A stretch of DNA of 64,000 nucleotides from NCBI RefSeq assembly GCF_016632335.1, contig NZ_JAEPBG010000025.1:1-64000 (forward strand). Reading direction: 5' to 3'. A model generated the notes under the pieces. It searched no databases. It saw nothing but the letters and a program-made list of their open reading frames with translations, and was not told the origin of the DNA. The stretch comes from Noviherbaspirillum pedocola (GTDB lineage Bacteria; Pseudomonadota; Gammaproteobacteria; Burkholderiales; Burkholderiaceae_D). The position numbers and the translations under genes were made by a program. Shown here in pieces: positions 3,864-62,567 of this stretch. How positions within the stretch are numbered: the first letter of the stretch is position 1; each line of letters starts with the position of its first letter.

Positions 3864-3876
3864 AAGTCCGCGCCTA

Positions 3877-21578: not shown

Positions 21579-21604
21579 AGCCGAACGCAAAGGAGGAAGC
21601 GCCA

Positions 21605-22399: not shown

Positions 22400-22652
22400 A
22401 GCCTATCCGGTTCACCGGTTAGATGCTGCAGGACGGTTGATCAGAACCATGCCAACTCTGCAGCAAACACCAATCGGGCGGCCGAGCCTCGGCACGTTCG
22501 CAGTGATCCGGAAAAATCATTGCTTGCGACGAGGCCGGGCATGGCTGCCCGGCAGAAAATCGGTGATATGAACGGTCCGGGAAGCGCGGCAGGCAATCTG
22601 GCCCGCGGGATCCTGCTGAACCACACACATACAATCACTGAGGAAAAACCTG

Positions 22653-23618
<966 letters not shown>

Positions 23619-38837: not shown

Positions 38838-38922
38838 GTCTTTTCCTCGAAAGTAATTGATTGAGATTGCTCGGCACGCGATCGCCATTGCCGCATTATT
38901 CGCCGAACGGCGGCAGGTCGGG

Positions 38923-38938
38923 TCGTCCGAAACGACGA
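38923..38938. promoter_or_regulatory. Acyl-CoA regulon operator, site B
   Basis: TCGTC-CGAAAC-GACGA, palindromic arms of 5 bp, located 1 bp after the CaiB-like gene and 85 bp upstream of the thiolase start. Confidence 0.7.
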
Positions 38939-38939
38939 T

Positions 38940-40079
38940 TTAGAGGACGCCTCTTTCTTTCAGCTCATTGATGCGTAGCCGGCTGAAGCCCCAGTCGGCC
39001 AAAACTGCCTCGCTATGCTCGCCGGCGCGAGCCGGCGGCATTGGTTCATCCGGTACGCTGTCTGAGAAACGCGGCGCGGGTGCCGGTTGCATTACCCCGT
39101 CGATCTCGATGAAGGTGCCGCGTGCTTGGTTGTGGGGATGGCGCGGCGCCTCATCCCAGTCCAGCACGGGAGCGAAACAGATGTCGGTGCCTTCCATCAG
39201 TGAGCACCACTCATCGCGGGTACGGGTCTTGAAGACATCGGCCAAGCGGTTCCTGAGCATCGGCCAGCTTCGCTGGTCCAATTGCTCGCGGAAAGCCGGA
39301 TCGTCGAGGCCGCAGTGTTTCAGCAGCAGCGCATAGAACTGCGGCTCAATCGAGCCGATGGCGACATGCTTACCGTCAGCGCAAGCGTAGGTGCCATAGA
39401 AGTGCGCTCCGCCATCAATCAGGTTCTCGCCGCGCTGGTTGCTCCAGGAACCGGCGGCCTTCATGCCATACATCATCGCCGACAGCAGCGCTGCACCATC
39501 GGTCATGGCGGTGTCCACTACCTCGCCCTTGCCGCCGCCACGCACCTTCAGCAGTGCGCACAGCACGCCGACGGCCAGCAGCATGGCGCCTCCGCCGAAG
39601 TCGCCGATGTAATTAAGCGGCACCGTCGGCGGCTCGTCGGGGCGGCCGATCGCATGCAGCGCGCCGGAGATCGCAATGTAGTTGATGTCGTGCCCGGCTG
39701 CCTGCGCCAAGGGGCCATGCTGGCCCCAGCCGGTCATGCGCCCGTACACCAGGCGCGGATTGCGCGCCTGGCAGGCGTCGGGCCCAAGGCCTAAGCGTTC
39801 CATCACTCCCGGGCGGAAGCCCTCAATCAGAGCGTCGGCTTGCTCTACTAAGTCAAGCACCGCTTCGGCCGCGCCCGGCTTCTTCAGGTCAAGCGCCAGC
39901 GAGCGCCGCCCGCGCGCCAAGATTTCGAAACGGGCTTCATCCTGCCCGCTGAAGCCCTTGCGAGGCCGGTCGATGCGAATCACTTCTGCGCCCATGTCGG
40001 CGAGCAACATCGCGCAGAAAGGCGCGGGGCCAAGCCCGACCATCTCAATCACTTTCAATCCGGATAACGGACCTGCCAT
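38940..40079 (-). CDS. CaiB/BaiF-family CoA enzyme, alpha-methylacyl-CoA racemase-like
   Basis: 379 residues from ATG 40079 with AAAGGAGG upstream. It has the racemase catalytic elements known from mycobacterial [18 protein letters not shown] (His), [10 protein letters not shown] (Asp) and [13 protein letters not shown] (Glu). It begins [20 protein letters not shown], typical of the racemase branch. Expected role: epimerising 2-methylacyl-CoA so that branched chains can enter beta-oxidation. A CoA-transferase function is less likely given these residues. Confidence 0.85.
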
Positions 40080-40109
40080 GGCATCCTCCTTTTTTGCCTC
40101 AATGTTCAA

Positions 40110-40994
40110 TTAGCTGCGAAAGTCCAACTTACGCAAGCTGCGGTGCGCCGGGCTGCAGCTGCTGCGTCCGCACGGCGTCCGGAATTTCAACCGGCCGGCC
40201 ACTGCGCGGTCGACAAATACCATTACATTCTCTGCCACCGCAATGCACTCGTTGCCACTATAGACACCAACGCGCGACACCATAATAGCGAGTGCAAAAG
40301 ACAGTGACGGCGGCACATGGTGCAATACGCGAATGCCGACATGGGCAACCAGCAAGCCGAGCGCACCGCACTCCGAGTCTTCGCCGGAGCGAGCCATGAC
40401 GTCATCAAGCGTGCTCACCCGCGCCTGCTCCACGTAGCGCGCCAGCGCAGGCTCAGACAGGAGGCCATCGGCATCGAGGTCGCCGTAGCGGGAGCTAAGT
40501 GACAGGCTCCACGGATACTCCGCCTGAACAGAGGTCGCACCGTTGGGCTTAATTGAGTCTTCCAACTGGCGAGCGAAGGACTCTAGCCGCGTACGAACCT
40601 GTTCCGGCAGCAGCACTGCATGGCCGTCTTTCCAGGCCGCCATGCGGCACTCCTGCAAGCCAACGCAACGCTCCTCTTGGAACAGCACGCTGGCTAAGGT
40701 ATAGCCATGCACGTCTATACCAGTCAGGCTGACCCCGCAGCGTAACGGCATAGGGAAATGACTGACTTTTAGGGAATCAGTGGCAAAGGATACCGGCCGT
40801 ACCGCAGCGGTCATCGCGAGCAAATCGTTGCGACCGAATAGTTCCACATGGAGCAACATGCGTCCCTTGCCGTGTAATCCCTGCAGCGCCACGTTATTCA
40901 TATGCCGCTCCAAGTCCATGTCGAAGTAGCGGGTTGAAAGATTGGCGCCGAAGCGGTAATAGCCCGGGTTCTGCCGCCATGCATTGCCTTTCAT
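40110..40994 (-). CDS. Tandem hot-dog acyl-CoA thioesterase-like protein
   Basis: 294 residues from ATG 40994, which has AAGGA at good spacing; earlier ATGs (41021, 41048) lack one. Two 4-hydroxybenzoyl-CoA-thioesterase-like domains are present: the first with STRYFDMDLERHMNNVALQG (the D-x-x-x-H-x-N-N element), the second with SSRYGDLDADGLLSEPALAR and YVEQAR. It probably hydrolyses an acyl-CoA and so balances CoA pools. It is co-transcribed with the racemase (30-bp gap) and has operator site C 53 bp upstream. Confidence 0.7.
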   Translation of the reverse strand: MKGNAWRQNPGYYRFGANLSTRYFDMDLERHMNNVALQGLHGKGRMLLHVELFGRNDLLAMTAAVRPVSFATDSLKVSHFPMPLRCGVSLTGIDVHGYTLASVLFQEERCVGLQECRMAAWKDGHAVLLPEQVRTRLESFARQLEDSIKPNGATSVQAEYPWSLSLSSRYGDLDADGLLSEPALARYVEQARVSTLDDVMARSGEDSECGALGLLVAHVGIRVLHHVPPSLSFALAIMVSRVGVYSGNECIAVAENVMVFVDRAVAGRLKFRTPCGRSSCSPAHRSLRKLDFRS

Positions 40995-41047
40995 CGGCTT
41001 CCTTACGTTTGATGTTGCCATGGTAGGGATGCAACCTCGTGCCGGCA

Positions 41048-41063
41048 TCGTCGGAACGGACGA
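41048..41063. promoter_or_regulatory. Acyl-CoA regulon operator, site C
   Basis: TCGTC-GGAACG-GACGA in the divergent promoter between the thioesterase (53 bp away) and the nitroreductase (77 bp away). Confidence 0.72.
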
Positions 41064-41140
41064 TTGATCAGCTGCGCAGGCAGCCCTATGCTGCAGCCAT
41101 CCTCGAATTCTTATAGTGCACCCCTCGTCAAGGAGAAAAC

Positions 41141-41812
41141 ATGGACGTCTATGAAGCGATCCGCTCGCGTCGCTCGGTGCGTGGCTTTCTCAACACACCG
41201 GTTCCGGTGGGCGTGATGCCGCGGATTCTTGCGGCAGCCGCGCGTGCGCCGAGCGGCGGCAACCTGCAGCCTTGGCACATTAAAGTAATATCCGGCGCGG
41301 CGATGCAGCGCCTCAAGGCGATCATGCAGCATCGCGTGGAGGATGCGCCGCAGGGTGAGGCTATTGAGTACGATATTTATCCCAAGGAGCTGGTGGCACC
41401 CTACCGCGACCGCCGGTTTCAGATCGGCGAAGACCTGTATGCGCAGCTCGCCATCCCGCGCGAGGACAAGGCAGCGCGCCGGAAGTGGTTCGCCCGAAAT
41501 TACCAGTTCTTCGGCGCGCCGGTCGGCCTGTTCTGCACCGTCGACCGCCGCATGGGGCCGCCGCAATGGTCCGACCTCGGCATGTTCCTGCAAAACGTGA
41601 TGCTGCTTCTGCGCGCAGAAGGCTTAGATAGCTGCCCGCAGGAGTGCTGGGCCACCTACCCACAGACGATTGCAGAGTTCCTAGGCACTCCGGCGGAGCA
41701 GATGCTATTCACCGGCATGGCGATCGGCTATGCCGACCCCGAAGCGCCGGCGAATCGGGTAGTGGCAAAGCGGGCTGAGCTAGGAGAGTTTGCGCAGTTC
41801 ATCGAGCAATGA
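41141..41812 (+). CDS. Nitroreductase-family flavoprotein, copy 2
   Basis: 223 residues; RBS CAAGGAG before ATG 41141. FMN motif SRRSVRGFLNTPVPVGV and APSGGNLQPWHIKV, dimer-interface FFGAPVGLFCTVDRRMGPPQ and C-terminal GMAIGYADPEAPANRVVAKR. It is a paralogue of the 27539 gene but lacks that protein's N-terminal extension. Sharing a divergent operator with the thioesterase-racemase genes suggests a reductive step on an unsaturated or keto acyl intermediate; this is inference. Confidence 0.82.
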   Translation: MDVYEAIRSRRSVRGFLNTPVPVGVMPRILAAAARAPSGGNLQPWHIKVISGAAMQRLKAIMQHRVEDAPQGEAIEYDIYPKELVAPYRDRRFQIGEDLYAQLAIPREDKAARRKWFARNYQFFGAPVGLFCTVDRRMGPPQWSDLGMFLQNVMLLLRAEGLDSCPQECWATYPQTIAEFLGTPAEQMLFTGMAIGYADPEAPANRVVAKRAELGEFAQFIEQ

Positions 41813-42138
41813 AAGCAGGGATCGTAATGGGCACTCGGCGCATACAGGAGGTAACACAACTCGGCTGATGCCTTTTTGTCACTTCTGTAAGGAACCCGCC
41901 TTGTGGAATTTCCCTGAAGTTCGGTTTCCGCTAAAAGCGGTCGCTGCCCTAGGGGATCTAATGTCTGCTTATTGAAGGGTTCGTAGAAGGTCCCTCAATT
42001 GGGAACCAATGCGCGGGATTGCGTCTATTACAAGATAGTCTTTCCCTAATACTTTCGCTAAAACGAACGGGAATGATGTTGCAAATATAGCATTGACGAA
42101 GTACTGACCAGTCCATGTTTCACCCATCGCTTTATTAA
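41813..42138. other. Intergenic stretch without recognisable features
   Basis: No gene or clear regulatory site is visible apart from a short stem CCGCT-AAA-AGCGG near 41929-41941. Confidence 0.3.
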
Positions 42139-43422
42139 CGAGTCTTCAAGAACTCGCCCATTGGCGCCTACCTTTTGGTGCCTACAGCGGAAGTCACCAT
42201 TCTGGATGTTAATGATTCCTTCCTGCGCCGCGTCTCGCTGACACGAGAAGACATGGTCGGAAAGGGGTTGTTCGAGGTGTTTCCGGATAACCCGGCTGAC
42301 GCGGAAGACACTGGGATTGAGGCTTTGCGCCAGTCGATTGCGAAAGCGGTGTCTACCGGGGAAGTCCAGCATCTGGCAGCTCAGCGTTTCCCTATCAAGA
42401 AAACAATGCCGAATGGCAAAGTCATTTTCGAGGAACGTTTCTGGAACGCTTCCAACACTCCAGTTTTCTCCCCGGATGGGGAATTATTGTGCATCCACCA
42501 CACGACAATTGAAGTTACGAATGAAGTCAGGGCAGTTGCCGCGCTCCAGAAAAGTGAGAAGCGGCTTACCTTGGCTTTGAAAGCGGCCGGAACGGCCGTG
42601 TGGGATATGGACACCGCTACGCAGGAGATCATTCCAGCCAGCGACTTGGTCTTTTCGATGTTGGGATACGAACCTGGAGAGATCATAACCTCCTCTGAAT
42701 GGATTTCTCTCATTCACGAGGAAGACCTCCCGGGCGTACGGGAAATGATTGACGATGTGATTGCAGGCCGGCGAGAGAGTTACTGGCGTGAGCTGCGTCT
42801 GCGCGCGAAGGATGGTAGCTGGCGCTGGATTCTTTCTCAGGCCACGAGCGTTGAGCGTGACGCGCACGGCAGGGCAACCCGCCTGGTAGGCATGCATACC
42901 GATTTCAACGAGCGCAAGCTGGCTGAACAACGTGTACGCGAGGCCGCGCTGCACGACCCGCTGACCGGCCTGCCGAATCGGGCACTGCTATTCGAATATG
43001 GTAGCCATCTCATCGCGGCAGCCAGTCGGAATCATAGCCGCGGTGCGCTTATGTTTATCGATCTCGACCGATTCAAGCCAATCAACGATATCTATGGACA
43101 CGAGATCGGCGACCGCGTCTTGCAGGAGGTCGGAAGGCGGCTCATCGGTTGCACACGACAGGAGGACGTGGTGGGACGGATAGGAGGTGATGAATTCGTC
43201 ATCGTCCTTCCGCACGTTGACGCAGGCCGCTATCCAGCCGCAATCGTCGCCCAACACGTTATAGAAAACATCAGTCAGCCCTTTCTAATCAGCAACCTAG
43301 AGTTGTCGCTTTCGCCGTCGATCGGCATCAGTTATTACCCAGAGCACGCAACCGACATGAGCTCTCTGATTCATACTGGCATACGCAGCATCGTTCATAT
43401 GCTAACTTCATCGTCAATTTGA
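42139..43422 (+). pseudogene. PAS-PAS-GGDEF diguanylate cyclase, truncated at both ends
   Basis: The frame starts after a TAA at 42136 and reads VFKNSPIGAYLLVPTAEVTI, already inside a PAS domain; the first possible starts are TTG 42175 or GTG 42178, with no ribosome site. A second PAS with PAC segment follows (ALKAAGTAVWDMDTATQEII, ERDAHGRATRLVGMHTDFNE). The GGDEF domain comes next (DPLTGLPNRALLFEY, DLDRFKPINDIYGHEIGDRV, GGDEF at 43183-43197). The end loses the normal HADxAMYxAK helix and becomes IHTGIRSIVHMLTS, which looks like a frameshift. Probably the remains of a larger c-di-GMP sensor enzyme. Confidence 0.65.
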
Positions 43423-43682
43423 TGAGCGGCATCGTCGCTTACTGCTTACTGCCTCCTGCCAAATAAGCCGCGGCTCCCTGTCAGGTCATCTATTCCGGCC
43501 TGCCGATAGTCCCTTATCCCGAGCTGACGTTAACTATAGGGAAATTCCTGTATCGGATATCTGCTTTGGCCGCGGCAAAACTGAAGGCCGGCCAGGTTTG
43601 CAAATCTCCACTACGCCTCCACTCAGGCACTGGCTAGCACCTAAGACTCCGCGGTTCGCAAGCGGTGTTCGGCGAAATGGCG

Positions 43683-44720
43683 CTACGTCCAATCCGCCGC
43701 TTCTACTGCTCTCTTTGCAAAAATCCCCGCCTGCCCGCCTACCTGCTCGGCATCTGCTGCCGCTGCACTGCCGTCCCGAGCGCGTGCGGCGATGCCTTCC
43801 AGGATAACCGCGAAGCGAAACAGCGAGAACGCCAGATGGAAGCCGGTTATGCCGTCCTCTCTTCCGCTCGCGCGGCGGTAATCGTCTAGGTGTTCCTTCA
43901 TCGACGGAATTCCTTGCGCTTCGAGGTCGGTGCCGCGCAGTCCGCCGAATTCGTCGGGATGCGTCAGCCATGCCATGCAGTTGTAGGCCACGTCCGCGAG
44001 CGGATGGCCGAGCGTGGACAATTCCCAGTCCAGCACCGCGATAACGCGTGGCTCGGTCGGATGGAACATGAGGTTACCGAAGCGAAAATCGCCATGCGCA
44101 ATGGCAGTATCGTCGTTTGCGGGAATATGCCGTGGCAGCCAGCGGATCAGATGCTCGATGTCGGCATTCTCGGCCGTCTTCGACATGTGCCATTGCTTGG
44201 TCCAGCGTCCGATCTGGCGCTCAAAATAGTTGCCTGGCTTGCCATAGCCGTCCAGCCCGGCCGCTCGCCAGTCCACGCCATGCAGCGCCGCCAACGTCTC
44301 GGCCATCGAGCGGTACATGGCGCGACGCTCGACCTGCGGCGCTTCCGCCAGCGCATAGGCGGGGAAGATGCGGCCGTGCAGCCGCTCCATCAGATAGAAC
44401 GGCGTCCCGATTACACCGGCGTCTCCGCAATACAGCACCGTGGCCGGCACCGGCACCCCACTGCCGGCCAATGCGTTGAGGACCCGGTATTCGCGGTCCA
44501 CCGCGTGTGCCGACGGCAGCAGGTTGCCGCCAGCCGGCTTCTTGCGCAGCACCAGCTCGCGGTTGTCGAAGCTAGCGAAGAAGGTCGGGTTTGACTGGCC
44601 GCCGCCGATACGCTCCAGCCGCATCCCGCCCTTGAGCCCAGGAACCTGCCGCTGCAGCCAGCCCTGCAGCCGGGCGGGATCGAAGTCGGCTGCGACCGGG
44701 TGCATGACCGCCGCCATCAT
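43683..44720 (-). CDS. APH-fold acyl kinase-like protein (ACAD10/11 kinase-type)
   Basis: 345 residues of the aminoglycoside/choline kinase fold. It has a nucleotide loop (IGGGQSNPTFFASF), LVLRKKPAGGNLLPSAHAVD, the catalytic AHGDFRFGNLMFHP (His-x-Asp...Asn) and metal-binding [20 protein letters not shown]. This subfamily matches the N-terminal kinase domain of animal ACAD10/11, which phosphorylates 4-hydroxyacyl-CoA. It overlaps the downstream gene order of a crotonase, SDR and FadJ (its start overlaps the crotonase stop by 4 bp), so a CoA-thioester substrate is more likely than an antibiotic. Confidence 0.8.
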   Translation of the reverse strand: MMAAVMHPVAADFDPARLQGWLQRQVPGLKGGMRLERIGGGQSNPTFFASFDNRELVLRKKPAGGNLLPSAHAVDREYRVLNALAGSGVPVPATVLYCGDAGVIGTPFYLMERLHGRIFPAYALAEAPQVERRAMYRSMAETLAALHGVDWRAAGLDGYGKPGNYFERQIGRWTKQWHMSKTAENADIEHLIRWLPRHIPANDDTAIAHGDFRFGNLMFHPTEPRVIAVLDWELSTLGHPLADVAYNCMAWLTHPDEFGGLRGTDLEAQGIPSMKEHLDDYRRASGREDGITGFHLAFSLFRFAVILEGIAARARDGSAAAADAEQVGGQAGIFAKRAVEAADWT

Positions 44721-45538: not shown

Positions 45539-45579
45539 TAATGAATCTCCTTGAAACCTGGATGGTTCAGCCGGGGCGA

Positions 45580-46362: not shown

Positions 46363-46386
46363 GCGAAATTCCTTGAATAAATTTTT

Positions 46387-48540
46387 TCAGGGCGCGCCGT
46401 AATATCTGCTGCCATTGGAAGCCATCGTCCGCATGCGGGTGGTGGCTTGATAGTGTTTGCCGAGATGCGCATAGTGGTCGCAGCGTCGCACTACTGCCTC
46501 CAAGCCAAGCCAGTCGGCATACTTCAATGCGCCGCCGAGATATTTCGGAAAGCCGATGCCGAGCAGCAGTGCCATGTCAAGTTCTGCCGGCGTCGCCACC
46601 ACTTCTTCTTCCAATGCATGCGCGGCTTCCACCATCAACGGCAGCATCATGCGCTCGACAATCTCGGTGTGGCTGAGTTCACACCGCCCGTGCGGCTGGA
46701 TCGTTGCTAGCAGTGCGGCGGTATCCTCGGCTACATGCTTTCTTGGCTTGCCGGCAGGGTCCAGCTCGTAGCGGTAGAAACCGATGCCGTTCTTCTGACC
46801 ATAGCGCTCATGCTCCACCATTAGCCTCAGGGCATCGCGCGCCAGCGGCGGCATGCGCTCTGGGTAACCAGCCGAAATCACGTCGCTGACGTGGCTACCG
46901 GTGTCCATGCCGACTACGTCTTCCAGGTAAGCCGGACCCATCGGCCAACCAAATTCTTCCATAACGTGGTCGATCAGTAGGTAGTCGACACCTTCAGCCA
47001 CCAGTTCCATGAAAGCGCGCACATAGGCAGTCAAGATGCGGTTAACCAAGAACCCTGGGCAATCCTTAACCACAATCGGCGTCTTGCCCATGGCCACCGC
47101 GTACCCGACGGCGGTAGAGACCACCTCTTCGCTAGTTGCGCTGCCCTTGATCACCTCGACCAAGGACATCACCGGCACCGGATTGAAGAAATGCATGCCA
47201 ACGAAATTCTGTGGGCGGCGCAGCGCCTGTGCCATGTCGTCGATGCGTAGGCTTGAGGTGTTGGAAGCGATGACTGCGTCCTTGTTTGTCACCTCTTCCA
47301 CTTCGGCCAGCACGCGGCGCTTGATGCTAATGTTCTCGACGATGGCTTCAATCACCACGTCCACCTCATTAAACCCGGCAAAGTCAAGCTGCGGCGTGAT
47401 CGATGCCATGACTGCGTTAGCTTTGTCCTGGGTAAGCCTGCCAGCTTTCACCTGGCGTGCCAGCTGCTTCAGTGCTTCCTTGCTGCCGAGCTCGAGCTGG
47501 GTGGGCTGGATGTCTTTCATGCGCACCGGCACGCCGCGCAGCGCGCTGGTATAAGAAATACCGCCGCCCATGATGCCGGCACCCAGCACCGCCGCCTGCT
47601 TCACTGGGCGAGCCTGCTTCGCGTGGGCGCGAAACAGCTTCTTCAATGCCTGGTCGTTGTGGAACAACTGGACGAGAGAATCGGCGGCCTGGCTCTTGGC
47701 GACCGCGCCAAAGGCTTCGCATTCAAGCCGGCGCGCGCCAGCCCGGTCGAGTAGCACCGCATGCGCCATCATGTCTACTGCGACCGTCGCAGCTGGCTGG
47801 TGCTTCGGAGCGGTGGCGGCGATCTTCTCTCGCGACGCCTGGAAGACGGCGGCGACTTCCGCTGCCGGCAGCGGCACCGGTTCCAACTTGCGTCGGCGCT
47901 GGGCCTGCCAGTCGATCTGGCCGTCGGCTGCGCGGCGCAGCAGGCCCAGCGAGACTTCACGCAGTTTTTCCGGCGCGCAGATCTCGTCCACTACGCCTGC
48001 GCGCAGTGCCGCTTCCGCCTTGCTCGGTTTGCCACTCGAAACCCAGTCGATCGCGGTCTGCACGCTCGCCACGCGCGGCAGGCGCACCGTGCCGCCGGCT
48101 CCAGGAAACAAGCCGAGGTTGACTTCCGGTACGCCGACTTGGGCGGTGTTCGACATCACCCGGTACACTGCCGACAGCGCGATCTCCAGCCCACCCCCTA
48201 GGGCATAGCCGTTGATGGCGGCCACGGTCGGAATTGGCAGATCCTCGAAGGCAGTGATCGGCTGGTTGCTCCAGTTGTTCTCTGCCTTCAATTTTTCCGG
48301 TGGCGCCTTGAACAGTTCATGAAACTCAGTGATGTCAGCACCGACGATGAACACATCCTTGGCACTGCTCATAAGCACGCCACGCAGTTCGGGCATGGCG
48401 GCGATGGCGCGGGTGGCTTCGCCAAGCTCACGCGACATCAGGCGGTCCATCTTATTTATGGACGCACCTTGGCGATTGAAGCAGAGCTCCACGAAGCCCT
48501 CCGCGAGGGCAGTGACGGTGATGGTCTGACCTAGGTACAC
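46387..48540 (-). CDS. fadJ: FadJ/FadB-type multifunctional enoyl-CoA hydratase/3-hydroxyacyl-CoA dehydrogenase
   Basis: 717 residues from GTG 48540 (AAAAGGGGAAA upstream). The N-terminal crotonase domain keeps both catalytic glutamates (GGGLEIALSA, GVPEVNLGLFPGAGGT). The dehydrogenase domain starts near 320 with AAVLGAGIMGGGISY and contains SNTSSLRIDDMAQALRRPQN, HFFNPVP and the C-terminal halves. It carries out hydration and NAD-dependent oxidation in beta-oxidation. First gene of its operon, 56 bp downstream of operator site D. Confidence 0.9.
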   Translation of the reverse strand: MYLGQTITVTALAEGFVELCFNRQGASINKMDRLMSRELGEATRAIAAMPELRGVLMSSAKDVFIVGADITEFHELFKAPPEKLKAENNWSNQPITAFEDLPIPTVAAINGYALGGGLEIALSAVYRVMSNTAQVGVPEVNLGLFPGAGGTVRLPRVASVQTAIDWVSSGKPSKAEAALRAGVVDEICAPEKLREVSLGLLRRAADGQIDWQAQRRRKLEPVPLPAAEVAAVFQASREKIAATAPKHQPAATVAVDMMAHAVLLDRAGARRLECEAFGAVAKSQAADSLVQLFHNDQALKKLFRAHAKQARPVKQAAVLGAGIMGGGISYTSALRGVPVRMKDIQPTQLELGSKEALKQLARQVKAGRLTQDKANAVMASITPQLDFAGFNEVDVVIEAIVENISIKRRVLAEVEEVTNKDAVIASNTSSLRIDDMAQALRRPQNFVGMHFFNPVPVMSLVEVIKGSATSEEVVSTAVGYAVAMGKTPIVVKDCPGFLVNRILTAYVRAFMELVAEGVDYLLIDHVMEEFGWPMGPAYLEDVVGMDTGSHVSDVISAGYPERMPPLARDALRLMVEHERYGQKNGIGFYRYELDPAGKPRKHVAEDTAALLATIQPHGRCELSHTEIVERMMLPLMVEAAHALEEEVVATPAELDMALLLGIGFPKYLGGALKYADWLGLEAVVRRCDHYAHLGKHYQATTRMRTMASNGSRYYGAP

Positions 48541-48596
48541 GCGATTTCCCCTTTTTTACGATAGGGCGAGTCTACGTGCGACGACAGCAGGCAGCA

Positions 48597-48612
48597 TCGT
48601 CGGAACCGACGA
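48597..48612. promoter_or_regulatory. Acyl-CoA regulon operator, site D
   Basis: TCGTCGG-AA-CCGACGA is the most symmetric copy (7-bp arms). It lies in the divergent promoter of fadJ (56 bp) and the LuxR-type regulator gene (119 bp). Confidence 0.78.
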
Positions 48613-48731
48613 ATGCGCGGTGGTGGTCGACGTGATCCGTCTGAGCACATGCAATGCCGCGTTCACAACGCCAACATCTCAGCTAGAATCGCAAGCGAAA
48701 TGACAGCCGCTGCCCGTCCCGGTTCACCACC

Positions 48732-51455
48732 ATGATCGAATCCGCCAGCCTTTACCGCCCCTTCCTTTCAACGAAGCTTAATCCGCCCACCACCACGCCA
48801 GCCCAAGTGCCGCGTGACGGCATCTGGGATAAGGTCCGCTCGGCGCAGTCGATGAAGCTGATTCTGGTGCGCGCACCGGCCGGCTTTGGCAAGACGACTG
48901 CGATGGTGCAGTTCCGGGCGCACCTGGAAGAAAACCATATCGAGACGGCCTGGATGACGCTAGACGGCGGCGATAACGATGCTTCCCGTTTCCTCGCATG
49001 TTTATCTGGCGCAGTTTCGGTGCTGACCGGTGACCGCGACGAGCCCGAGGAGGCAAACCTGCTGGCGACTGGCCAACCGCTGGCTGACATGGCGCTCAGC
49101 ATCATCGACCGCCTGGCCAAGCACAGTGCGCCGTTCGCGCTGTTCCTGGACGACTTCGAAACGCTTCAGGAGCCGACCGTGCTGCGTCTAGTGCGTGAAC
49201 TGCTCGACAACCTGCCGCGGCGCGGCCAGCTGATCATCGGCTCGCGCGGGCTGCCCGACCTCGGGCTGGGCCGCCTGCGTGCGCGAGGCCATCTATTGGA
49301 GATCGATGCGACCCAACTGCGCTTCACGCTTCAGGAAACCACCGAGTTCGTCACCCGCCGCCGCCGAATCGCGCTGCCAGAAGAAGAGCTCTCGCTATTG
49401 CATAGAAAGACCGAAGGCTGGGTCGCGGCGCTGTGGCTTGCCTCGATGGCGCTGGAGGGCCGCGACGGAAAATCGGAATTTATCGCCCGATTTTCAGGCT
49501 CAAATGAAGCGGTGGCCGACTACCTTGCCGAGGACGTGCTTGCCAGCCAGCCACCGGCGGTGCGCGACTTCCTGCTGCGCACCAGCATCCTGCGCCACTT
49601 GAACGCATCACTATGCAATGCCCTTCTGCCCGGCGCCGACAGCGGCGCGGTGCTGCGCCAGTTGGAAGAATCTAACCTATTCCTCACACCGATAGAGGGC
49701 GAGGAACGCAGCTATCGCTACCACAGCCTGTTCGCGGGCTTCCTGCGTGCCCAGCTCGAACGTGAACTACCTAGGCAGGCGGCGCAGTTACATCGCGCCG
49801 CCTCACACTGGTATGAGTCCTGTAGCCGGCCGGTGCCGGCGATCGACCATGCAATCGAAGGCGGCAACTACGAACATGCGGTAAGGTTGCTCGAACTGCA
49901 TGCGGAAAGCCTGCTCGAAGGTGGCCGCATGCGCCTGCTAGCGCGCTGGTTCTCAGCCCTGCCCGATGCCGCCATCCGCCGCTCGCCTTTGCTGCAGGTA
50001 ATTCATGTCTGGGCGGTATGCCTGACGCGAGGCCCTTGGGAGGCAATGGCGGTTCTGGAGGACTCCGGCTGCTTGCAATCCGACGATCCACGCGTACTGG
50101 CGCATGTGCTGGCGCTGCGGCCGATGAGTCTGGCGATGATGGACCGCAAGGAAGATGCCCATGCGCTCGGCCGCGAGGCGCTGGCGCGCCTGCCGCTTGG
50201 CAATGCCTTTGCCGACAATACCCTGGCCAACGAAATGGCCTACATATTCGCGGTGATGGGGGACTACCAAGCTTCGCACAAGCTGCTCGACTCGGCGCGG
50301 CGCGGACAGGGCTTGACTGCCAGCGCCTTCCATAAGATGTATTCGGAATCGGTGGAAGGCATCATCGACCTCGAAGAAGCCCAACTGCGGCAGGCTACCG
50401 CTCGTTTCCGGATCGCGGTCAGCTCCACCCATTCGGTATCCTACCGCCATACCGGTGGCAACGCCTGGGCCGGTGTGCTGTACGCCGCCACGCTGTACGA
50501 AGCCAACGACCTTGGCCAAGCCGAGCACCTGCTGCAGGTGTACGTGCCACTGGCCAAGGACGTCGGCCTGCCCGACCACATGATCATCGGCTACACTTTG
50601 CTATCGCGCGTAGCGTTTCATCGCGGCGACATCGACCAGTCGTTTCAATGGCTGACCGAGATGGAGTACATCGGCCACCGGCGCCAGCTGCCGCGCGTGG
50701 TGAGCAGCGCCAAGCTGGAACGCGCGCGCATCCTCGCCCTGCAAGGCAACATCGGAGGCGCCCAAGAGGAGTTTGCACGCGCCAATACGTTTGAGGTGTG
50801 GGAACGGGTGCAGCGGCTGCGGCTGCCTGCCCACGACATCGACAACGCTGAGCTGGGAGCGATCCGGCTGCACGTATTCACCGGCAATGGAAAGGCGGCG
50901 CTACAGATGGCAGAACCAGCGCTGGCAGCTGCAATCGCGTCGAAGCGCCTTCGCCGCGCGTTAAAGTTGCGGGTGCTGCGTGCCCTGGCAGAGCACCAGT
51001 CGGGCGATCTGCGCACTGCGGTAGCTAGCATGACCGACATGCTGAAGGCAACGTGCAGCGAAGGCTTTATCCGCCTGATCGTCGACGAAGGCGAACGGGC
51101 CGGGCAGCTGGTGCGCGAGGTGGAGGAAGCCTGCCGCGCGCAGGGAGGAAGATCCGATCCTATCTTTAGTGTCTATCTACAGAAGCTGCTGGAAGCGTTC
51201 GGACCGGTGCCGGCAGCCGAGCTAGACATGCCGGCTGGCGATGCGGCCAACGTGCTGGTGGAACAGCTCACGGCTAAGGAGATTCGTATACTGTCACTAC
51301 TGGCGGAAGGATATTCGAATAGTGCACTAGCGGAAAAGCTGTTCGTGTCTGACAGTACCGTGCGTACGCATCTTAGGAATATCAACGGCAAGCTCAATGC
51401 GCATAACCGCACGCAGGCGGTGGCGGTGGCGCGCAAGCTTGGGGTGATACGTTAG
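48732..51455 (+). CDS. Large ATP-binding LuxR-family regulator (LAL; MalT/AlkS-like)
   Basis: 907 residues. N-terminal STAND ATPase with Walker A at 48-56 (APAGFGKTT) and Walker-B-like FALFLDDFETL; a middle of helical TPR-like repeats (about 350-800); and a C-terminal LuxR HTH (LTAKEIRILSLLAEGYSNSA, LAEKLFVSDSTVRTHLRNIN). MalT and AlkS are activators of this class; AlkS responds to alkanes. It is transcribed divergently from the FadJ operon over operator site D and is the only intact transcription factor in the acyl-CoA block. This makes it the best candidate for the regulon's activator. Confidence 0.88.
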   Translation: MIESASLYRPFLSTKLNPPTTTPAQVPRDGIWDKVRSAQSMKLILVRAPAGFGKTTAMVQFRAHLEENHIETAWMTLDGGDNDASRFLACLSGAVSVLTGDRDEPEEANLLATGQPLADMALSIIDRLAKHSAPFALFLDDFETLQEPTVLRLVRELLDNLPRRGQLIIGSRGLPDLGLGRLRARGHLLEIDATQLRFTLQETTEFVTRRRRIALPEEELSLLHRKTEGWVAALWLASMALEGRDGKSEFIARFSGSNEAVADYLAEDVLASQPPAVRDFLLRTSILRHLNASLCNALLPGADSGAVLRQLEESNLFLTPIEGEERSYRYHSLFAGFLRAQLERELPRQAAQLHRAASHWYESCSRPVPAIDHAIEGGNYEHAVRLLELHAESLLEGGRMRLLARWFSALPDAAIRRSPLLQVIHVWAVCLTRGPWEAMAVLEDSGCLQSDDPRVLAHVLALRPMSLAMMDRKEDAHALGREALARLPLGNAFADNTLANEMAYIFAVMGDYQASHKLLDSARRGQGLTASAFHKMYSESVEGIIDLEEAQLRQATARFRIAVSSTHSVSYRHTGGNAWAGVLYAATLYEANDLGQAEHLLQVYVPLAKDVGLPDHMIIGYTLLSRVAFHRGDIDQSFQWLTEMEYIGHRRQLPRVVSSAKLERARILALQGNIGGAQEEFARANTFEVWERVQRLRLPAHDIDNAELGAIRLHVFTGNGKAALQMAEPALAAAIASKRLRRALKLRVLRALAEHQSGDLRTAVASMTDMLKATCSEGFIRLIVDEGERAGQLVREVEEACRAQGGRSDPIFSVYLQKLLEAFGPVPAAELDMPAGDAANVLVEQLTAKEIRILSLLAEGYSNSALAEKLFVSDSTVRTHLRNINGKLNAHNRTQAVAVARKLGVIR

Positions 51456-51862
51456 TCGTCGGCGTGACGGGGGCTGCCATTGACAACTTCTTTCGTCACC
51501 GCATTGCAAAGGGTAGGTCGCTGCACTTTAAACGCGCAAGGCACTAAAATTGTTAAATCGCAGCAGGCAATAGTGATTTAATTGGTTATCCGCTTCGTTT
51601 GACTCCGCATATCGACAGCTTGAGCAAACCAGCCTCGCCGCCCTGCAGCCGCTTGCTTTACGCCAGCGGCGCGGCTCCGGCTAAGACCAAGCTCACTTCG
51701 GAAAGATCATCCTTTCATAAATTCCGTGACCGCCGGGATCTACCTAGTGATCGTTCCGATTTGCGTATTGGTCATAATAAGGAGAGCGAGGTCGGCAAGG
51801 CCTAAAGAGCCATGCACCCGCCATAAGCCAAGGCAAGCTGCCTGAGCGCGGCGGCATTGCGG
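51456..51862. other. Intergenic stretch without recognisable gene
   Basis: A hydrophobic peptide frame at about 51737-51850 (IYLVIVPICVLVIIRRARSA) looks like a broken membrane-protein end. No clear promoter or repeat was seen apart from a partial TCGTCGG half-site at about 51455. Confidence 0.3.
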
Positions 51863-52900
51863 ATGGTGGTCCTGAATGCGGGAGCGCCCAATTTTCTGCC
51901 TCTTTTGCTCGGCAACATCAGCCTGACCGCCGGCACGGTGTTCCATTGGTCCGGAATCCACACCTTTTACTGCCGCAAGCCGACACGTACTGGTTGGGTC
52001 AAACTCGCCGCTTTCGCCGTCGCCTTCTTGGCGCTACTGCCGTTTCATGCCACCGTCAGGGACCGCCCCATCCTGTCAGCCTCTACCTTGTGCGCTATCC
52101 TGACCTTGTGCCTGATCGATGTTGTTCGCCACCGATCGGAATCATTTTCATTTGCTTCGCGACTGGCCGTCTTTGCCTTGCTGCTAGTTATGGTCACCGG
52201 CTTCCACCCCTTGGCCCTGCTGGCGCGGGACGGTTCGTATTTACCCGTCACCGATTGTGTCCTCGGCATCATGGTGGTTTACTTCGCGCCGCTAGCCGGC
52301 ACTCTGCCATTCTCGATAGTGCTCGTCCTGCTGTATTTTGAAAAGCTGGTTGGTCTAAAGCTTCATCTCGCACCGCATGAGGAATTGACCGGGCTGATGA
52401 ACCGCCGCGCCATCATGACCCGAGGACGCCAGGAAATCGAACTGGCCGTCCGTACCAGCCAACCGGTGGCGCTGGCCTATCTGGACATCGACCACTTCAA
52501 GAGCATCAATGACGATCGCGTCCACAAGAGCTGCAATGGCATGCTGGCCCGGTTCGCCGATCTGTTCAAGAAGACTTGCCGGACCACCGATCTGGCAAGT
52601 CGCTACGGCGGCGAGGAATTCTGCGTAATGCTGCCCAGCATCCGCGTAAAAGGCGCTTCCCCCTTTGGCCAACGCCTACTGGAAGCCGTTCACGTGTGCG
52701 ACTTCCACATTGGCCGCCAAGTGACGGTCAGCATCCGCCTTGTGGTATGGACGCCGCTGGACGCGGCGGTTTTTCGGAACAGCCTGATTCGGCAGGCCGA
52801 CTTGCCCTTGTACGAAGCCAATCGCATGGGCCGAGACCGGTTCCTCGTGCATGTCTCCAGCCAAGATTTAACGCCCGGTCTCGAACGGCTTGCGGGCTAG
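51863..52900 (+). CDS. Membrane-bound GGDEF-domain protein, possibly degenerate
   Basis: About 345 residues from ATG 51863 (TTG 51857 is also possible; neither has a good ribosome site). Six or so membrane helices (about 10-165) precede a GGDEF domain with LTGLMNRRAIMTRGR, YLDIDHFKSIN and the active-site GGEEF at 249-253. The usual GH...GD motif after INDxxG is replaced (DRVHKSCNGML), and the C-terminal A-D-x-A-L-Y-x-A-K element is altered (RQADLPLYEANRMGRDRF). The enzyme may be a weak or inactive diguanylate cyclase. The first helix appears cut, so the N-terminus may be truncated. Confidence 0.65.
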   Translation: MVVLNAGAPNFLPLLLGNISLTAGTVFHWSGIHTFYCRKPTRTGWVKLAAFAVAFLALLPFHATVRDRPILSASTLCAILTLCLIDVVRHRSESFSFASRLAVFALLLVMVTGFHPLALLARDGSYLPVTDCVLGIMVVYFAPLAGTLPFSIVLVLLYFEKLVGLKLHLAPHEELTGLMNRRAIMTRGRQEIELAVRTSQPVALAYLDIDHFKSINDDRVHKSCNGMLARFADLFKKTCRTTDLASRYGGEEFCVMLPSIRVKGASPFGQRLLEAVHVCDFHIGRQVTVSIRLVVWTPLDAAVFRNSLIRQADLPLYEANRMGRDRFLVHVSSQDLTPGLERLAG

Positions 52901-52937
52901 AAAAGGCGGCCGCTGACACTTGCTGGCACCATCCGAA

Positions 52938-53759: not shown

Positions 53760-53790
53760 CTAATTCATTTCTCCTCCAGCGGTGCTACGC

Positions 53791-54939: not shown

Positions 54940-54972
54940 GGGTATGCTCCTGCGCTTGATGGTCGATCCGGC

Positions 54973-56187: not shown

Positions 56188-56244
56188 AACGGTCTCCTTA
56201 ATTATAGGGCAACGATACGGCTTGGCGCTGAGATAGATTGGCTC

Positions 56245-57069
56245 TCAGCGTCCTGAATACGACGGGGCCCGCTTTTTCATAAAAGCCTGCACTCCCTCCC
56301 GGAAATCCTCGGTCTGCGCGCACAGCACCTGGTTGCGGTCTTCCATAGCGATGGCGGCATCCAGGCTGGCGGCATTGACGCTATGGTTCAGGCAGTCCTT
56401 GGTCAGGCGCAGGCCGAGCGGCGCGGTGTCCAGCATCTCCTCGACCAAACGCATGCCAGCCTGCTCCAGTTCAGCATCGGGACAGACTTCGGACACCAGC
56501 CCGACCCGCTCGGCGCGCTCAGCGCGGATGAAGCGGCCGGTCAACATCAGCTCGGAGGCGACCGATACGCCGACCAGGCGCGGCAGGAAGTAGGACACGC
56601 CGATGTCGCAGGCCGACAGGCCGATGCGGATGAAAGCGGCATTCATCTTTGCGCTCTGCCCGGCAATGCGCACGTCGGACGCCAGCGCGAGGGCGAAGCC
56701 GCCGCCGCAGGCGGGCCCGTGCACGAGGCTGACGATCGGTTGCGGCACGCGCCGCATGCGCATCACGATCTCGCTGATGCGCCGCTGCAGGCGCAGCATG
56801 ATAGTCGGGCTGCCCGGGCTCGGTTCGAAGGCTCTGTCGCCGCCGTCGCTGTCGGCTAGGTCCAACCCCGCACAGTAAGCGCGACCGGCCCCGCGCAGCA
56901 CGATCGCGCGCGTGTCGAGGTCGAAGGTGCGCTCGCCGAAGTAATGCAGCAGTTCGTCGATCATGCAGTGGTTCAGCGTGTTAAGCTGCTCGGGCCGGTC
57001 GAGTGTGACCCAGTCGGTCGCACCGCGCTTTTCTACCTTAATGGTCTGGTATTTCCTGGCGTCGTTCAT
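56245..57069 (-). CDS. Crotonase-family protein (EchA/CaiD-like)
   Basis: 274 residues from ATG 57069 with CCAGGAGCGGCG; the open frame extends upstream without a start signal. LDRPEQLNTLNHCMIDELL, GAGRAYCAGLDLAD and VHGPACGGGFALALASDVRI. Both hydratase glutamates are missing (Ala; Asn-Ala-Ala-Phe), and the IRIGLSACDIGVSYFLPRLV segment is typical of a mycobacterial EchA-like group whose reactions are mostly unknown. Operon member between a crotonase and a binding protein. Confidence 0.82.
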   Translation of the reverse strand: MNDARKYQTIKVEKRGATDWVTLDRPEQLNTLNHCMIDELLHYFGERTFDLDTRAIVLRGAGRAYCAGLDLADSDGGDRAFEPSPGSPTIMLRLQRRISEIVMRMRRVPQPIVSLVHGPACGGGFALALASDVRIAGQSAKMNAAFIRIGLSACDIGVSYFLPRLVGVSVASELMLTGRFIRAERAERVGLVSEVCPDAELEQAGMRLVEEMLDTAPLGLRLTKDCLNHSVNAASLDAAIAMEDRNQVLCAQTEDFREGVQAFMKKRAPSYSGR

Positions 57070-57094
57070 CGCCGCTCCTGGGTTCGATACTCGA

Positions 57095-57889
57095 TCAATC
57101 ACGGTCGGCTTCCGGCGTTCCGGCCTGGTGCCGACCGCGTCGCTGCAGTGCCTGCCGGCGTGCATTCATTTCCTGCGCTGCCTGCACCCCCCAGCGCGCC
57201 GAACGTTCCCGCTCCAGCTGCAGGGCTTCGCCGTAGGGCAGCGCATAACCGTCGCCGATCAGGCGCTTGTAGGCGGGCAGCATCTCAGGCAGAGCCGACA
57301 ACATGTCGGCGGCAAGACACCGGGCTTCGGGTAGCAGCCCCTCGGCCGGGACTATCCTACTCACCAGCCCGCGTGCGACCGCTTCCTTCGCGCTCATGAA
57401 ATTGCCACTGAAGGCCAGTTCCTTGGCCCGGGACGGCCCGACGATGCGCGAAAGTTTTTGCGACAGCCCCCAGCCCGGCAGGATGCCGACCCGCGCATGG
57501 GTATCACTAAAGCAGGCCTCGGGCACCGCTAGCAGTACGTCGCAGGCCAGGGCTAGTTCAAAGCCGCCGGTGATTGCCGCGCCGTTGACGGCGCCGATCA
57601 CCGGACCGGCGAAGCGGCCCAGCGCGCGCACCGGATCAAATTCACCGGTGAATGCCGAGAGCGGTACACCCTGCTCCAGTTCCTTGAGATCCAGACCGGT
57701 GCAGAAGGCACGCCCGGCGCCAGTCAGGATCAGCACTCGTACCGCCGGGTCGGCGGCCAAGGCGTCGATGCTATCGGACAGCGTCCGGCACAGCGCGGCG
57801 GACAGCGCGTTGAGCGACAGCGGGCGGTTCAGTGTGAGCAGCGCGTAGCCGGAACCATCGACTTCGAGCTTGATTGGGCCCTCAGGCAT
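57095..57889 (-). CDS. Crotonase-family enoyl-CoA hydratase-like protein
   Basis: 264 residues. GAGRAFCTGLDLKELEQG and AVNGAAITGGFELALACDVL keep the first glutamate; at the second position is His (SDTHARVGILPGWGLSQKLS), a combination common in EchA-type proteins. The C-terminal tail is basic (RRQALQRRGRHQAG). It starts within 2 bp of the dienoyl reductase stop, so the two are translationally coupled and may act in sequence on unsaturated acyl-CoA. Confidence 0.82.
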   Translation of the reverse strand: MPEGPIKLEVDGSGYALLTLNRPLSLNALSAALCRTLSDSIDALAADPAVRVLILTGAGRAFCTGLDLKELEQGVPLSAFTGEFDPVRALGRFAGPVIGAVNGAAITGGFELALACDVLLAVPEACFSDTHARVGILPGWGLSQKLSRIVGPSRAKELAFSGNFMSAKEAVARGLVSRIVPAEGLLPEARCLAADMLSALPEMLPAYKRLIGDGYALPYGEALQLERERSARWGVQAAQEMNARRQALQRRGRHQAGTPEADRD

Positions 57890-57890
57890 C

Positions 57891-58700
57891 TCAGGCCTTC
57901 AGCGCATACTCTTGCGCGCTCATAGTTGACGCGTCACCAAGCTTGATGCCGCCGTCGCAGTCGATGATGGTGCCAGTGATATATCGCGCACTGTCCGAAG
58001 CGAGGAACAGTGCAGTGTCGGCGATGTCGGTGGTGGTGCCATAGTCGCGCAGCGCTAGACGGCCTTTGAGCGCCTGCTCCGCCTCGGGCGTGGCGGCCAG
58101 CCGGCGCATGCCCTCGGTGTCGGCAATCGGGCCGGGCGAGATGGCATTGACACGGATGCCTTCATTCCCCCATTCCATGGCCAAGCACTTGGTCAGCATG
58201 TTGATGCCGGCCTTGGCGGCGCATACGTGCGCCTGCAGCATCATTGAATTGGTGCCCTGCGGCGCCGTGATCGACATCAGTGCAGCACCCGGCTTGTTGA
58301 GATGCGGATAGCTCGCGCGCAACACATGGAAGGTGCCGAGCAGGTCGATGTCCACCACGGTCTTGAAGGCATTGGCCGACATGGCGGCAGCCGGCGCGAG
58401 GAAATTGCCAGCGGCGCCCGAGACGACGATGTCGATCGGGCCGAACCGTTCGCGGGCGGCCAGCATGGCCGCTTCGACGGCGGCAAAGTCGCGCACGTCG
58501 GCGGCCATGCCATGGGCCTTCAAGCCTTCGGCCCGCAGACCTGCGACTGCAGCCTCGATTTTTTCCGCACTGCGGCTGATTAAAAATACTGCCGCGCCGC
58601 GGCGCGCAAATCCGGCGGCGATACCGAGATTGATGCCGCTCGAGGCGCCGGCAAGGAAGGCGACCTTGCCGCGCAGTGCGTCGGGGTTAAACACATCCAT
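57891..58700 (-). CDS. 2,4-dienoyl-CoA reductase, SDR type (DECR2-like)
   Basis: 269 residues from ATG 58700; ATG 58766 is an alternative. NADPH motif AGASSGINLGIAAGFARRGA, ISRSAEKIEAA and SGAAGNF are present. The catalytic Tyr of the SDR Tyr-x-x-x-Lys is Val here (HVCAAKAG) while Lys remains, exactly as in the dienoyl reductases DECR1/DECR2, which use Asp/Lys instead. AISPGPIADTEGMRRL also matches DECR2. It removes double bonds at even positions of unsaturated acyl-CoAs. Probably co-transcribed with the binding protein gene at 58796. Confidence 0.82.
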   Translation of the reverse strand: MDVFNPDALRGKVAFLAGASSGINLGIAAGFARRGAAVFLISRSAEKIEAAVAGLRAEGLKAHGMAADVRDFAAVEAAMLAARERFGPIDIVVSGAAGNFLAPAAAMSANAFKTVVDIDLLGTFHVLRASYPHLNKPGAALMSITAPQGTNSMMLQAHVCAAKAGINMLTKCLAMEWGNEGIRVNAISPGPIADTEGMRRLAATPEAEQALKGRLALRDYGTTTDIADTALFLASDSARYITGTIIDCDGGIKLGDASTMSAQEYALKA

Positions 58701-58795
58701 GGCGATCTCGTGGTCAGAAAAACTACAAACAAAAAGATACCGCGTGAGCTTGGAATCAGGCGCCACGCGGCAAGAGGAGACTCGGTTCAGAGGCG

Positions 58796-60052
58796 TTACT
58801 GCTTGCCGTCGGGACGCTTCATGGCACAGGTGGTCGGCACTTCGGTCTCTGACGCCGGGATCATAGCCACCGTCTTGAAGCCGTAACCGGTGCCCTCGGT
58901 GTCATGCCTGACCTCCTTGCCGTCCTTCCTGCTGTAGACCGACAGCACCATCGGCTGCAGCAGCTGGTGATCTGCCTTGCGCATAGTGACCTTGCCGTTG
59001 CCGGCCTGGTACTCCATGCCTTCGAGCGCGAATGACACCTGCTTCGGGTCTAGCGACTTGCTCTTGTTCATGGCCTCGGCCAGCATCTGCACGGTGGTGT
59101 TGATGCGCACGTAGGAGAATTCGAGCCCCGGGAAGCGCTTGGCATAGTCGTCGGCGAATTTTTCCAGCGTGTTGGGCGAGATGTTGCGGTGCCACTCGCT
59201 GATTTGGTAGACGGTGCCCTCCGGCATTTCGCCTAGGGCGGTGGGCGTGCCGCGCACCGCCGCGAAATAGGTGAAGAACTTGGTCTTCAGGCTGGCTTCC
59301 TTAGCCGCGCGCAGCAGCAGCGACAAGTCGTTGCCCCAGTTGCCGGTGATGACGGTATCGGCGCCGGAGTCCTTGATCTTGGCGACATACGGAGAGAAGT
59401 CTTTGACCTTGCCGAACGGGTGCAGGTCGTTGCCGACGATCTCGATGTCGGGGCGCTTCTTCGGCAGCATGGTCGTCACTGCCTTGGCGAGCTGCTGTCC
59501 ATGCGCGTAGTCCTGGCCGAGGATGAACACCTTCTTGATGCTCTTATCCTTGGCGATGTAGTTGGTCAGCGCTTCCATCTTCATCAGGTTGTGCGCGTCA
59601 AAGCTGTAGTACCAGAAGCTGCACTTGGCGTTGGTCAGCTCCGGGTCATTGGACGAGTAGTTTAGAAACAGCACCGACTTATCGGGATTGCGCTCGTTCC
59701 ATTTGTTGACCGCGCCGATCAGCGCGCCGGCCGCTCCCGAGCCCTGGCCCTGGATGATGTAGCGGATGCCCCTGTCGGTGACCTTCTTGAACAACAACAG
59801 CGATTCTTCCGGGCTGCCCTTGTTATCCATCGGGACGATTTCGAGCTTCTGTCCGCCCGGCAGGCCGCCTTTGGCGTTGACGTCGTCGGCTGCCGCAATG
59901 AAGCTTTTCAGGCCAAAGTCGCCGATGGCGGCGAAGGGGCCGGAAAGCGGATCGATGTAGGCAACCTTGACCTGAGCGAAGACGTTGCTTGATACCGCCA
60001 GCGCCAGTACGTGAAACAGGCGGGCAGAACTGATGAAACGGCGCTTGGTCAT
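58796..60052 (-). CDS. Liv-type ABC transporter substrate-binding protein, copy 2
   Basis: 418 residues with signal peptide (LFHVLALAVSSNVFA). LivK-like fold: VKVAYIDPLSGPFAAIGDFG, GGQKLEIVPMDNKGSPEESL, QDYAHGQQLAKAVTTMLPKK and DSGADTVITGNWGNDLSLLL. It is quite different from copy 1, so the two probably present different ligands to one permease. First gene of the operon, with TTAGGAGACACTGC as ribosome site and operator site E 94 bp upstream. Confidence 0.88.
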   Translation of the reverse strand: MTKRRFISSARLFHVLALAVSSNVFAQVKVAYIDPLSGPFAAIGDFGLKSFIAAADDVNAKGGLPGGQKLEIVPMDNKGSPEESLLLFKKVTDRGIRYIIQGQGSGAAGALIGAVNKWNERNPDKSVLFLNYSSNDPELTNAKCSFWYYSFDAHNLMKMEALTNYIAKDKSIKKVFILGQDYAHGQQLAKAVTTMLPKKRPDIEIVGNDLHPFGKVKDFSPYVAKIKDSGADTVITGNWGNDLSLLLRAAKEASLKTKFFTYFAAVRGTPTALGEMPEGTVYQISEWHRNISPNTLEKFADDYAKRFPGLEFSYVRINTTVQMLAEAMNKSKSLDPKQVSFALEGMEYQAGNGKVTMRKADHQLLQPMVLSVYSRKDGKEVRHDTEGTGYGFKTVAMIPASETEVPTTCAMKRPDGKQ

Positions 60053-60146
60053 GCAGTGTCTCCTAAGTCATCGGAATTATTGGTTTTCATTTTTTTCATT
60101 TTGCCGACACACGAGCCCATTATTGGGCTAGCACGCGGTAGAGACT

Positions 60147-60162
60147 TCGTCGGAAGCGACGA
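60147..60162. promoter_or_regulatory. Acyl-CoA regulon operator, site E
   Basis: TCGTC-GGAAGC-GACGA, 94 bp upstream of the second binding-protein gene that heads the 52.9-60.1 kb operon. Confidence 0.74.
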
Positions 60163-60595: not shown

Positions 60596-60652
60596 AATAG
60601 TATGACCAGATCGCGACGGCAGTCAACTGCTGCTGCACGCAAGGAGATGGCA

Positions 60653-61390: not shown

Positions 61391-61466
61391 TGCCCCCCAC
61401 GCGCTGATCAGCAGAAAGCGGTTTGTTGACCCGCCCCAAGACATCGTCACCGGCTCTGCAACTCTC

Positions 61467-62555: not shown

Positions 62556-62567
62556 AAGGAGAACAAA

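Follow-up and report, generated by a model that had tools for sequence, protein, structure and literature searches.

Within the window analysed here (positions 1 to 64,000 of contig NZ_JAEPBG010000025.1 of Noviherbaspirillum pedocola, 64,000 nucleotides in all), a 16-bp palindrome of the form TCGTC-N6-GACGA recurs ahead of operons for acyl-CoA metabolism. Is it a common regulatory site, and which protein would read it? A preliminary description had taken it to be such a site, with the LAL (MalT-type LuxR) regulator encoded at 48732..51455 on the + strand as the best candidate factor. Both proposals are supported by the spacing of the palindrome to a -10-like hexamer, by its presence ahead of related first genes in other genomes and by its co-occurrence with orthologues of the regulator. 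On these patterns, the palindrome is very probably the operator of LAL, a putative class II activator of the LuxR/MalT type that would govern CoA-dependent beta-oxidation of an acid.

The palindrome and its promoter spacing

Six exact copies were found, at 38923, 41048, 48597, 60147, 20729 and 20776, as had been described; the last two are reverse complements of one another. The first four are intergenic, any open reading frame (ORF) overlapping them being at most 105 aa long. With start codons chosen as the likeliest ones by an AG-rich stretch upstream, the distances fall within the 53-119 bp first proposed. Box A (38923..38938) lies 85 bp from the thiolase ATG at 38837, and box B (41048..41063) lies 53 bp from an ATG at 40994 on one side and 77 bp from the nitroreductase ATG at 41141 on the other. 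Box D (48597..48612), a perfect 7-2-7 palindrome, is 56 bp from a GTG at 48540 and 119 bp from the LAL ATG at 48732, while box E (60147..60162) is 94 bp from an ATG at 60052. The GGAA centre noted for three of the four sites is present (the fourth has CGAA), but it does not hold as a consensus: the centre reduces to two A/T bases, and the box approximates TCGTC-SSWWYS-GACGA.

Chance occurrence had been judged unlikely, and the window bears this out. The six sites with TCGTC arms compare with a mean of 0.14 and a maximum of 1 for 29 control arms made by reordering those letters, and TCGTC arms at other spacings (0 to 12) give 0 or 1 match each. With one mismatch allowed, 14 sites are found in the window where 2.16 are expected. 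Genome-wide, the bare palindrome is not in excess, with 48 distinct sites in 7.24 Mb against 46 for the reversed control, a point against the preliminary description. Of 40 background matches, 15 were examined, and 14 of these lie inside ORFs of at least 190 aa. Most bare-pattern matches in the genome are background; the signal is the local cluster in the window together with a divergon on a second contig, C42. The stricter form TCGTCSGAANSGACGA is matched exactly five times in the 7.24 Mb, once on C42 and otherwise in the window (four sites).

The sites share a downstream feature. A -10-like hexamer begins 22 nt past the box at A (AATAAT, 38895-38900, - strand), leftward of B (TACCAT), on the left of D (TAGACT) and at E (AATAAT), as well as rightward of 20776 (GACAAT) and at both C42 boxes (AAGAAT and TAATCT). 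This amounts to seven of the eight sites of the genome's own clusters, 20729 being the exception. One common threshold was applied to all sets, and an offset scan peaked at 22 in all three; in the named genomes 23 scored almost as high. Among 116 boxes in relatives, the hexamer occurs at exactly 22 nt in 70 and at 22-24 nt in 108, against 7 to 29 in six control windows of three offsets (1 to 3 of 8 for the genome's own sites). We held out 11 boxes on contigs of genome G212 that had not been used in finding the 22-nt rule: 10 have the hexamer at exactly 22 nt and all 11 at 22-24 nt (controls, 1 to 6 of 11). By comparison, NANNNT follows at 22 nt in just 3 of the 40 remaining exact matches of the own genome. 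Three boxes in the same-genus genomes G078 and G015, where LAL has no match at 1e-60, have no -10-like hexamer at either 22 or 23 nt.

Immediately past the box, the 108 relative sites read approximately ATGC, a poor -35 element. Beyond the box, the following TG and the -10, these sites have no strong common flank. A repeat or mobile element was considered as the source of the copies and is not supported, as flanks are not common to the sites. Since the hexamer begins 22 nt past the box and is taken as -12 to -7, the box would span about -50 to -35, with its centre near -42.5. This predicted placement matches that of the lux box, which has its centre 42.5 nt ahead of the start (PMC7585371). By hexamer counts, 7/8, 70/116 and 10/11 sites of the three sets place the operator centre near -42.5, as for LuxR-type class II promoters.

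The LAL regulator and its co-occurrence with the boxes

The protein encoded at 48732 is 907 aa long and has the domain make-up of a LAL regulator. An N-terminal ATPase domain (PF13191, residues 32-168, 2.9e-8) with the Walker A sequence APAGFGKTT is followed by a MalT-like tetratricopeptide repeat (TPR) region (PF17874, residues 457-798, 3.2e-27) and a C-terminal LuxR/GerE helix-turn-helix (HTH) domain (PF00196, residues 845-900, 4.1e-17). Residues 12-421 match the MalT structure 8bob at 9.1e-51, and the NCBIfam MalT model NF003420 aligns over residues 12-797 with 350.7 bits. Identity as MalT itself was rejected, this score falling under the curated cut-off of 537. Of 43 orthologue copies, 39 have the recognition helix SDSTVRTHLRNIN unchanged, and one or two residues are altered in the remaining four.

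Of the 294 genomes of the family, 7 (own genome included) encode a LAL homologue at or above 54% identity. Two or more tight boxes are found in five of these seven (5, 3, 2, 8 and 3 boxes) and in none of the other 287, 17 of which have a single tight box; leaving out the own genome, the count is four of six. We also retrieved 36 loci from named genomes by means of the LAL protein. All 35 loci with a close orthologue (49-61% identity), from Variovorax, Pseudorhodoferax, Ramlibacter, Burkholderia singularis and four metagenome bins, contain at least one box, for a total of 94, while a Limnochordia locus whose LAL is 33% identical contains none. The genome-level comparison (5/7 against 0/287) is the fairer test, rather than the loci picked by LAL.

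The TetR-family protein encoded at 26868, put forward as a second possible factor, does not travel with the boxes. It has no homologue at 1e-10 in any of the six whole genomes of relatives that have both a LAL orthologue and boxes, and it is also absent from the 41 compared loci, which reach approximately 10-20 kb from LAL.

Genes assigned to the boxes

Genes were assigned to boxes by the placement of the -10-like hexamer. Box A would drive, on the - strand, a thiolase-livGFHM-ligase-MaoC-ligase operon running from 38837 down to 29517. Box B has hexamers on both sides, at 22 and 23 nt, and therefore the four boxes can serve five promoters: leftward, TACCAT precedes the ORF 40994-40110 and then a CaiB-type CoA transferase gene, and rightward, TATGCT lies 23 nt away ahead of the nitroreductase gene 41141-41812. 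On the - strand, the hexamer of box D faces fadB (48540-46387), which is followed leftward by genes for an SDR protein, an enoyl-CoA hydratase and an APH-like protein. Box E, likewise on the - strand, precedes an operon from 60052 down to 52938, with the order binding protein, SDR, two enoyl-CoA hydratases, binding protein, acyl-CoA dehydrogenase and enoyl-CoA hydratase. Two gene labels required revision. The first gene past box D had been labelled FadJ, but its product scores above the curated cut-off for FadB (PRK11730), and for 40110-40994, called a thioesterase, no Pfam or NCBIfam model matched at 0.001.

The regulon had been expected to include nearly every gene from 31 to 60 kb. Judged by hexamer placement, the boxes serve the nitroreductase gene and four operons that run leftward, but two GGDEF genes, LAL and the operon at 60602 are not evidently box-driven. 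The GGDEF (diguanylate cyclase) genes lie inside the cluster at 42175-43422 and 51857-52900, and those of the window have no counterpart in the 41 compared loci. Running rightward over 60602-63782 are SDR, APH-like and acyl-CoA dehydrogenase genes, for which no exact box other than box E lies within 450 bp upstream. A further APH-like gene is found at 43683.

Nor is the regulon confined to the window, as it extends to C42 and to a third contig, C52. On C42, two boxes 46 bp apart lie in an acyl-CoA divergon. One strand carries a FabK-like gene that scores below the FabK family cut-off; on the other, a frame resembling the window acyl-CoA dehydrogenase 62568 comes first and an enoyl-CoA hydratase-like gene next. 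DNA identity between C42 and the window is 78% over 22651-23593 and 69% over 20017-20660, and the 20729/20776 pair sits in a related divergon. Of the pair, the box at 20729..20744 (- strand) lies upstream of an enoyl-CoA hydratase-like ORF, 20651-19929, and that at 20776..20791 (+ strand) faces rightward, both in a decayed copy. Window 19929-23618 is a rearranged relative of C42 (L074) 1178-4260; in the window, the counterpart of the C42 FabK-like gene is broken into two ORFs, 22653-23045 and 23085-23618.

A genome scan for boxes with one mismatch followed by NANNNT at 22 nt proved mostly noise (119 against 89 in the control, both strands), and only the exact boxes and the C52 site were retained from it. 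C52 is a 5-kb contig on which positions 214-2983 (L075) hold a second LAL copy, 65-67% identical, interrupted and divided between two frames. The adjoining gene has 77% DNA identity to the window acyl-CoA dehydrogenase 53791, and a one-mismatch box stands 251 bp ahead of this gene, with AAAAAT at 22 nt. We count the joint presence of the interrupted LAL copy and the box on so short a contig in favour of LAL as the reader of the boxes.

In other genomes, first genes past a box, with the window counted, include FadB at 10 loci, nitroreductase at 15, thiolase at 7 and binding protein at 4; as the first-gene clusters contained antisense and chance ORFs, only those whose window member had been family-scanned were kept. 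In G212, where 10 of 11 such genes were scanned, the first genes include those for P450, GMC oxidoreductase, Rieske protein, FadB, thiolase and thioesterase. The largest box cluster seen is on contig C193 of this genome (L201-L202), with nine exact boxes in 38 kb, ahead of thioesterase, FadB, thiolase, SDR, Rieske, P450 and GMC oxidoreductase genes. Family scans of the window identify thiolase, CoA transferase, MaoC, FadB, ligases and acyl-CoA dehydrogenases. The window enzymes, taken with the P450, GMC oxidoreductase and Rieske families of G212, suggest a branched, cyclic or hydrocarbon-derived acid as the substrate; none of the family matches of the window and G212 genes names a pathway.

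Mechanism, alternatives and known systems

From the spacing and the co-occurrence we infer direct binding by LAL, and activation rather than repression. Two LuxR-type HTH domains would each occupy one half-site, and the bound LAL would adjoin RNA polymerase, replacing a good -35 element in the class II manner of LuxR. The sensor part, formed by the ATPase and the MalT-type TPR region, would meet an inducer, which is probably the acid being degraded, the CoA ester of that acid or a parent hydrocarbon. Induced LAL would then switch on the uptake, CoA-activation and beta-oxidation genes, arranged in single and in divergent operons.

Two alternatives have to be weighed, and we consider either of them improbable. 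In the first, a factor encoded elsewhere, of the CRP/FNR type or a FadP-like TetR protein, binds the box, with LAL a co-inherited neighbour. The arm-and-gap layout does resemble that of CRP sites, CRP/FNR-type sites being 5-N6-5 palindromes near -41.5. Moreover, the TetR-family FadP is predicted to govern fatty acid degradation in Comamonadaceae (PMC5343134). Yet clusters of two or more tight boxes track LAL orthologues across genomes, and among alternative regulators the TetR protein of the window, the one checked, is missing from all six relatives. In the second alternative, with a similarly small chance of being correct, the box is a repressor site, where LAL or some other bound protein blocks RNA polymerase at the -35 region. 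Occlusion is geometrically possible, as the box ends at about -35, and AlkS, a regulator of the same type, also represses PalkS1 (PMC3664771). Against this, a fixed 22-nt spacing is expected of an activator that touches the polymerase and is needless for a repressor, the -35 past the box is poor in the 108 relative sites, and AlkS activates PalkB (PMC8784404). An origin of the palindromes by chance, through codon usage or as a repeat family, as the genome-wide parity with the reversed control and the mostly coding background might suggest, has a negligible probability in view of the local enrichment over permuted arms and spacings, the held-out hexamer test and the lack of a strong common flank.

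Several observations weigh against LAL as the activator that reads the box. Two LAL-positive genomes, G084 and G069, lack tight boxes and have looser ones only (7 and 5, of which 5 and 4, respectively, lie within 16 kb of LAL). Since the named-genome loci were retrieved through LAL and include many close relatives, their 94 boxes are not independent, and 8 of the 116 exact matches in LAL loci lack a -10-like hexamer and are probably chance. Box 2287 of C42 falls within a 409-aa ORF when this is read at its longest, from a TTG start. LAL itself is not box-driven in the window, its side of box D scoring 0.82, and three exact TCGTC boxes occur in the nine regions of LAL paralogues whose recognition helix differs.

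The location of a box in the regulator's own promoter, offered earlier as the reason for choosing LAL, is a weak argument: the LAL side of box D has ATCCGT at 22 nt, and the box serves the divergent fadB. Nine boxes upstream of LAL in relatives were compared, excluding L049, L048 and L050, loci that were not turned to the regulator's strand. The other side reaches a score of 2.1 at 22-24 nt in all nine and the LAL side at 22 nt in three, and LAL-side hexamers are also found in G212 (TGCATT) and G069 (TAGTTT). Autoregulation is not seen in the window; in relatives it may occur.

The nine paralogues, at 36-41% identity, have the helix S[VI]TTV[KR][TA]HLRNIN. A fresh palindrome search of their regions, from which N runs and GC-rich arms were discarded, gave TAGAG-N6-CTCTA (0-1 mismatch) 119-191 bp upstream of the paralogue gene in five (L192, L193, L194, L199 and L200), two of these boxes being followed by TAATCT at exactly 22 nt. 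There are five such palindromes in the 176 kb of the paralogue regions and none in 332 kb of box-bearing regions. Permuted arms are equally frequent in the paralogue regions (GATGA 15, mean 4.0, TAGAG 5), and therefore only the position of TAGAG is informative. These palindromes are perhaps operators of another LAL group. It is possible, although we regard it as doubtful, that two sister groups share one promoter layout with different letters, SDSTVRTHLRNIN reading TCGTC-N6-GACGA and some paralogues with the helix S[VI]TTVKTHLRNIN reading TAGAG-N6-CTCTA; as tentatively, a few residues would then switch the operator while spacing and mechanism stayed unchanged. Four of the nine regions lack a TAGAG box, and in two of the five that have one, a TCGTC box followed by a -10-like hexamer also lies shortly beyond the paralogue gene, which makes a division into two groups less likely. 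Of the three TCGTC boxes in the paralogue regions, two have TACATT at 23 nt and one GTTAAT at 22 nt. Two genomes have the same box, TCGTCCGATCGGACGA, close to the 3' end of the paralogue (L199:11861 and L200:7347), and in both it is followed by TACATT at 23 nt.

Read as the operator of LAL, the palindrome adds a new example of LuxR/MalT-type activators, nearest in kind to AlkS. AlkS of Pseudomonas putida GPo1 is a LuxR/MalT-type alkane regulator that activates PalkB (PMC8784404, PMC3664771). Both systems would pair a regulator of this type, governing hydrocarbon or acid catabolism, with an inverted repeat upstream of the promoter and with activation. AlkS also has a site at its own promoter, and a box stands beside LAL. 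They differ in that the AlkS targets are alkBFGHJKL and alkST and its inverted repeat, which is homologous to other operators of the LuxR family, measures 20 bp, whereas here the repeat is 16 bp, has other letters and precedes beta-oxidation operons; the comparison with AlkS is one of published descriptions. LuxR shares the GerE-type HTH and an inverted repeat centred at -42.5 (here from the predicted -10), but LAL has an ATPase and MalT-type TPR in place of an acyl-homoserine-lactone domain, and its box is 16 bp rather than 20. The full-length domain layout is that of E. coli MalT (NF003420, residues 12-797; PDB 8bob, 12-421), with a score under the cut-off and a different operator and targets. 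FadR, PsrA and FadP likewise control fatty-acid degradation genes in Proteobacteria, but belong to the GntR and TetR families (PMC5343134). The main text of that regulon survey nowhere uses the words LuxR, MalT or LAL. In the literature searchable as full text, which leaves most subscription papers outside its scope, five exact boxes gave no match and no description of the 48732 regulator was recognised. Three papers contain TCGTCGGAA together with LuxR.

LAL regulators have been called poorly studied (PMC3282765). If the palindrome is the operator of LAL, for one of them the operator would be precisely defined and the promoter layout known, and its regulon could be recognised from the sequences of Variovorax, Pseudorhodoferax, Ramlibacter and their relatives. 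DNA-recognition rules could be worked out on related regulators whose recognition helices differ, and the system would form a basis for acid- or hydrocarbon-responsive reporters. The unnamed acyl-CoA clusters would become one regulated pathway with a searchable inducer.

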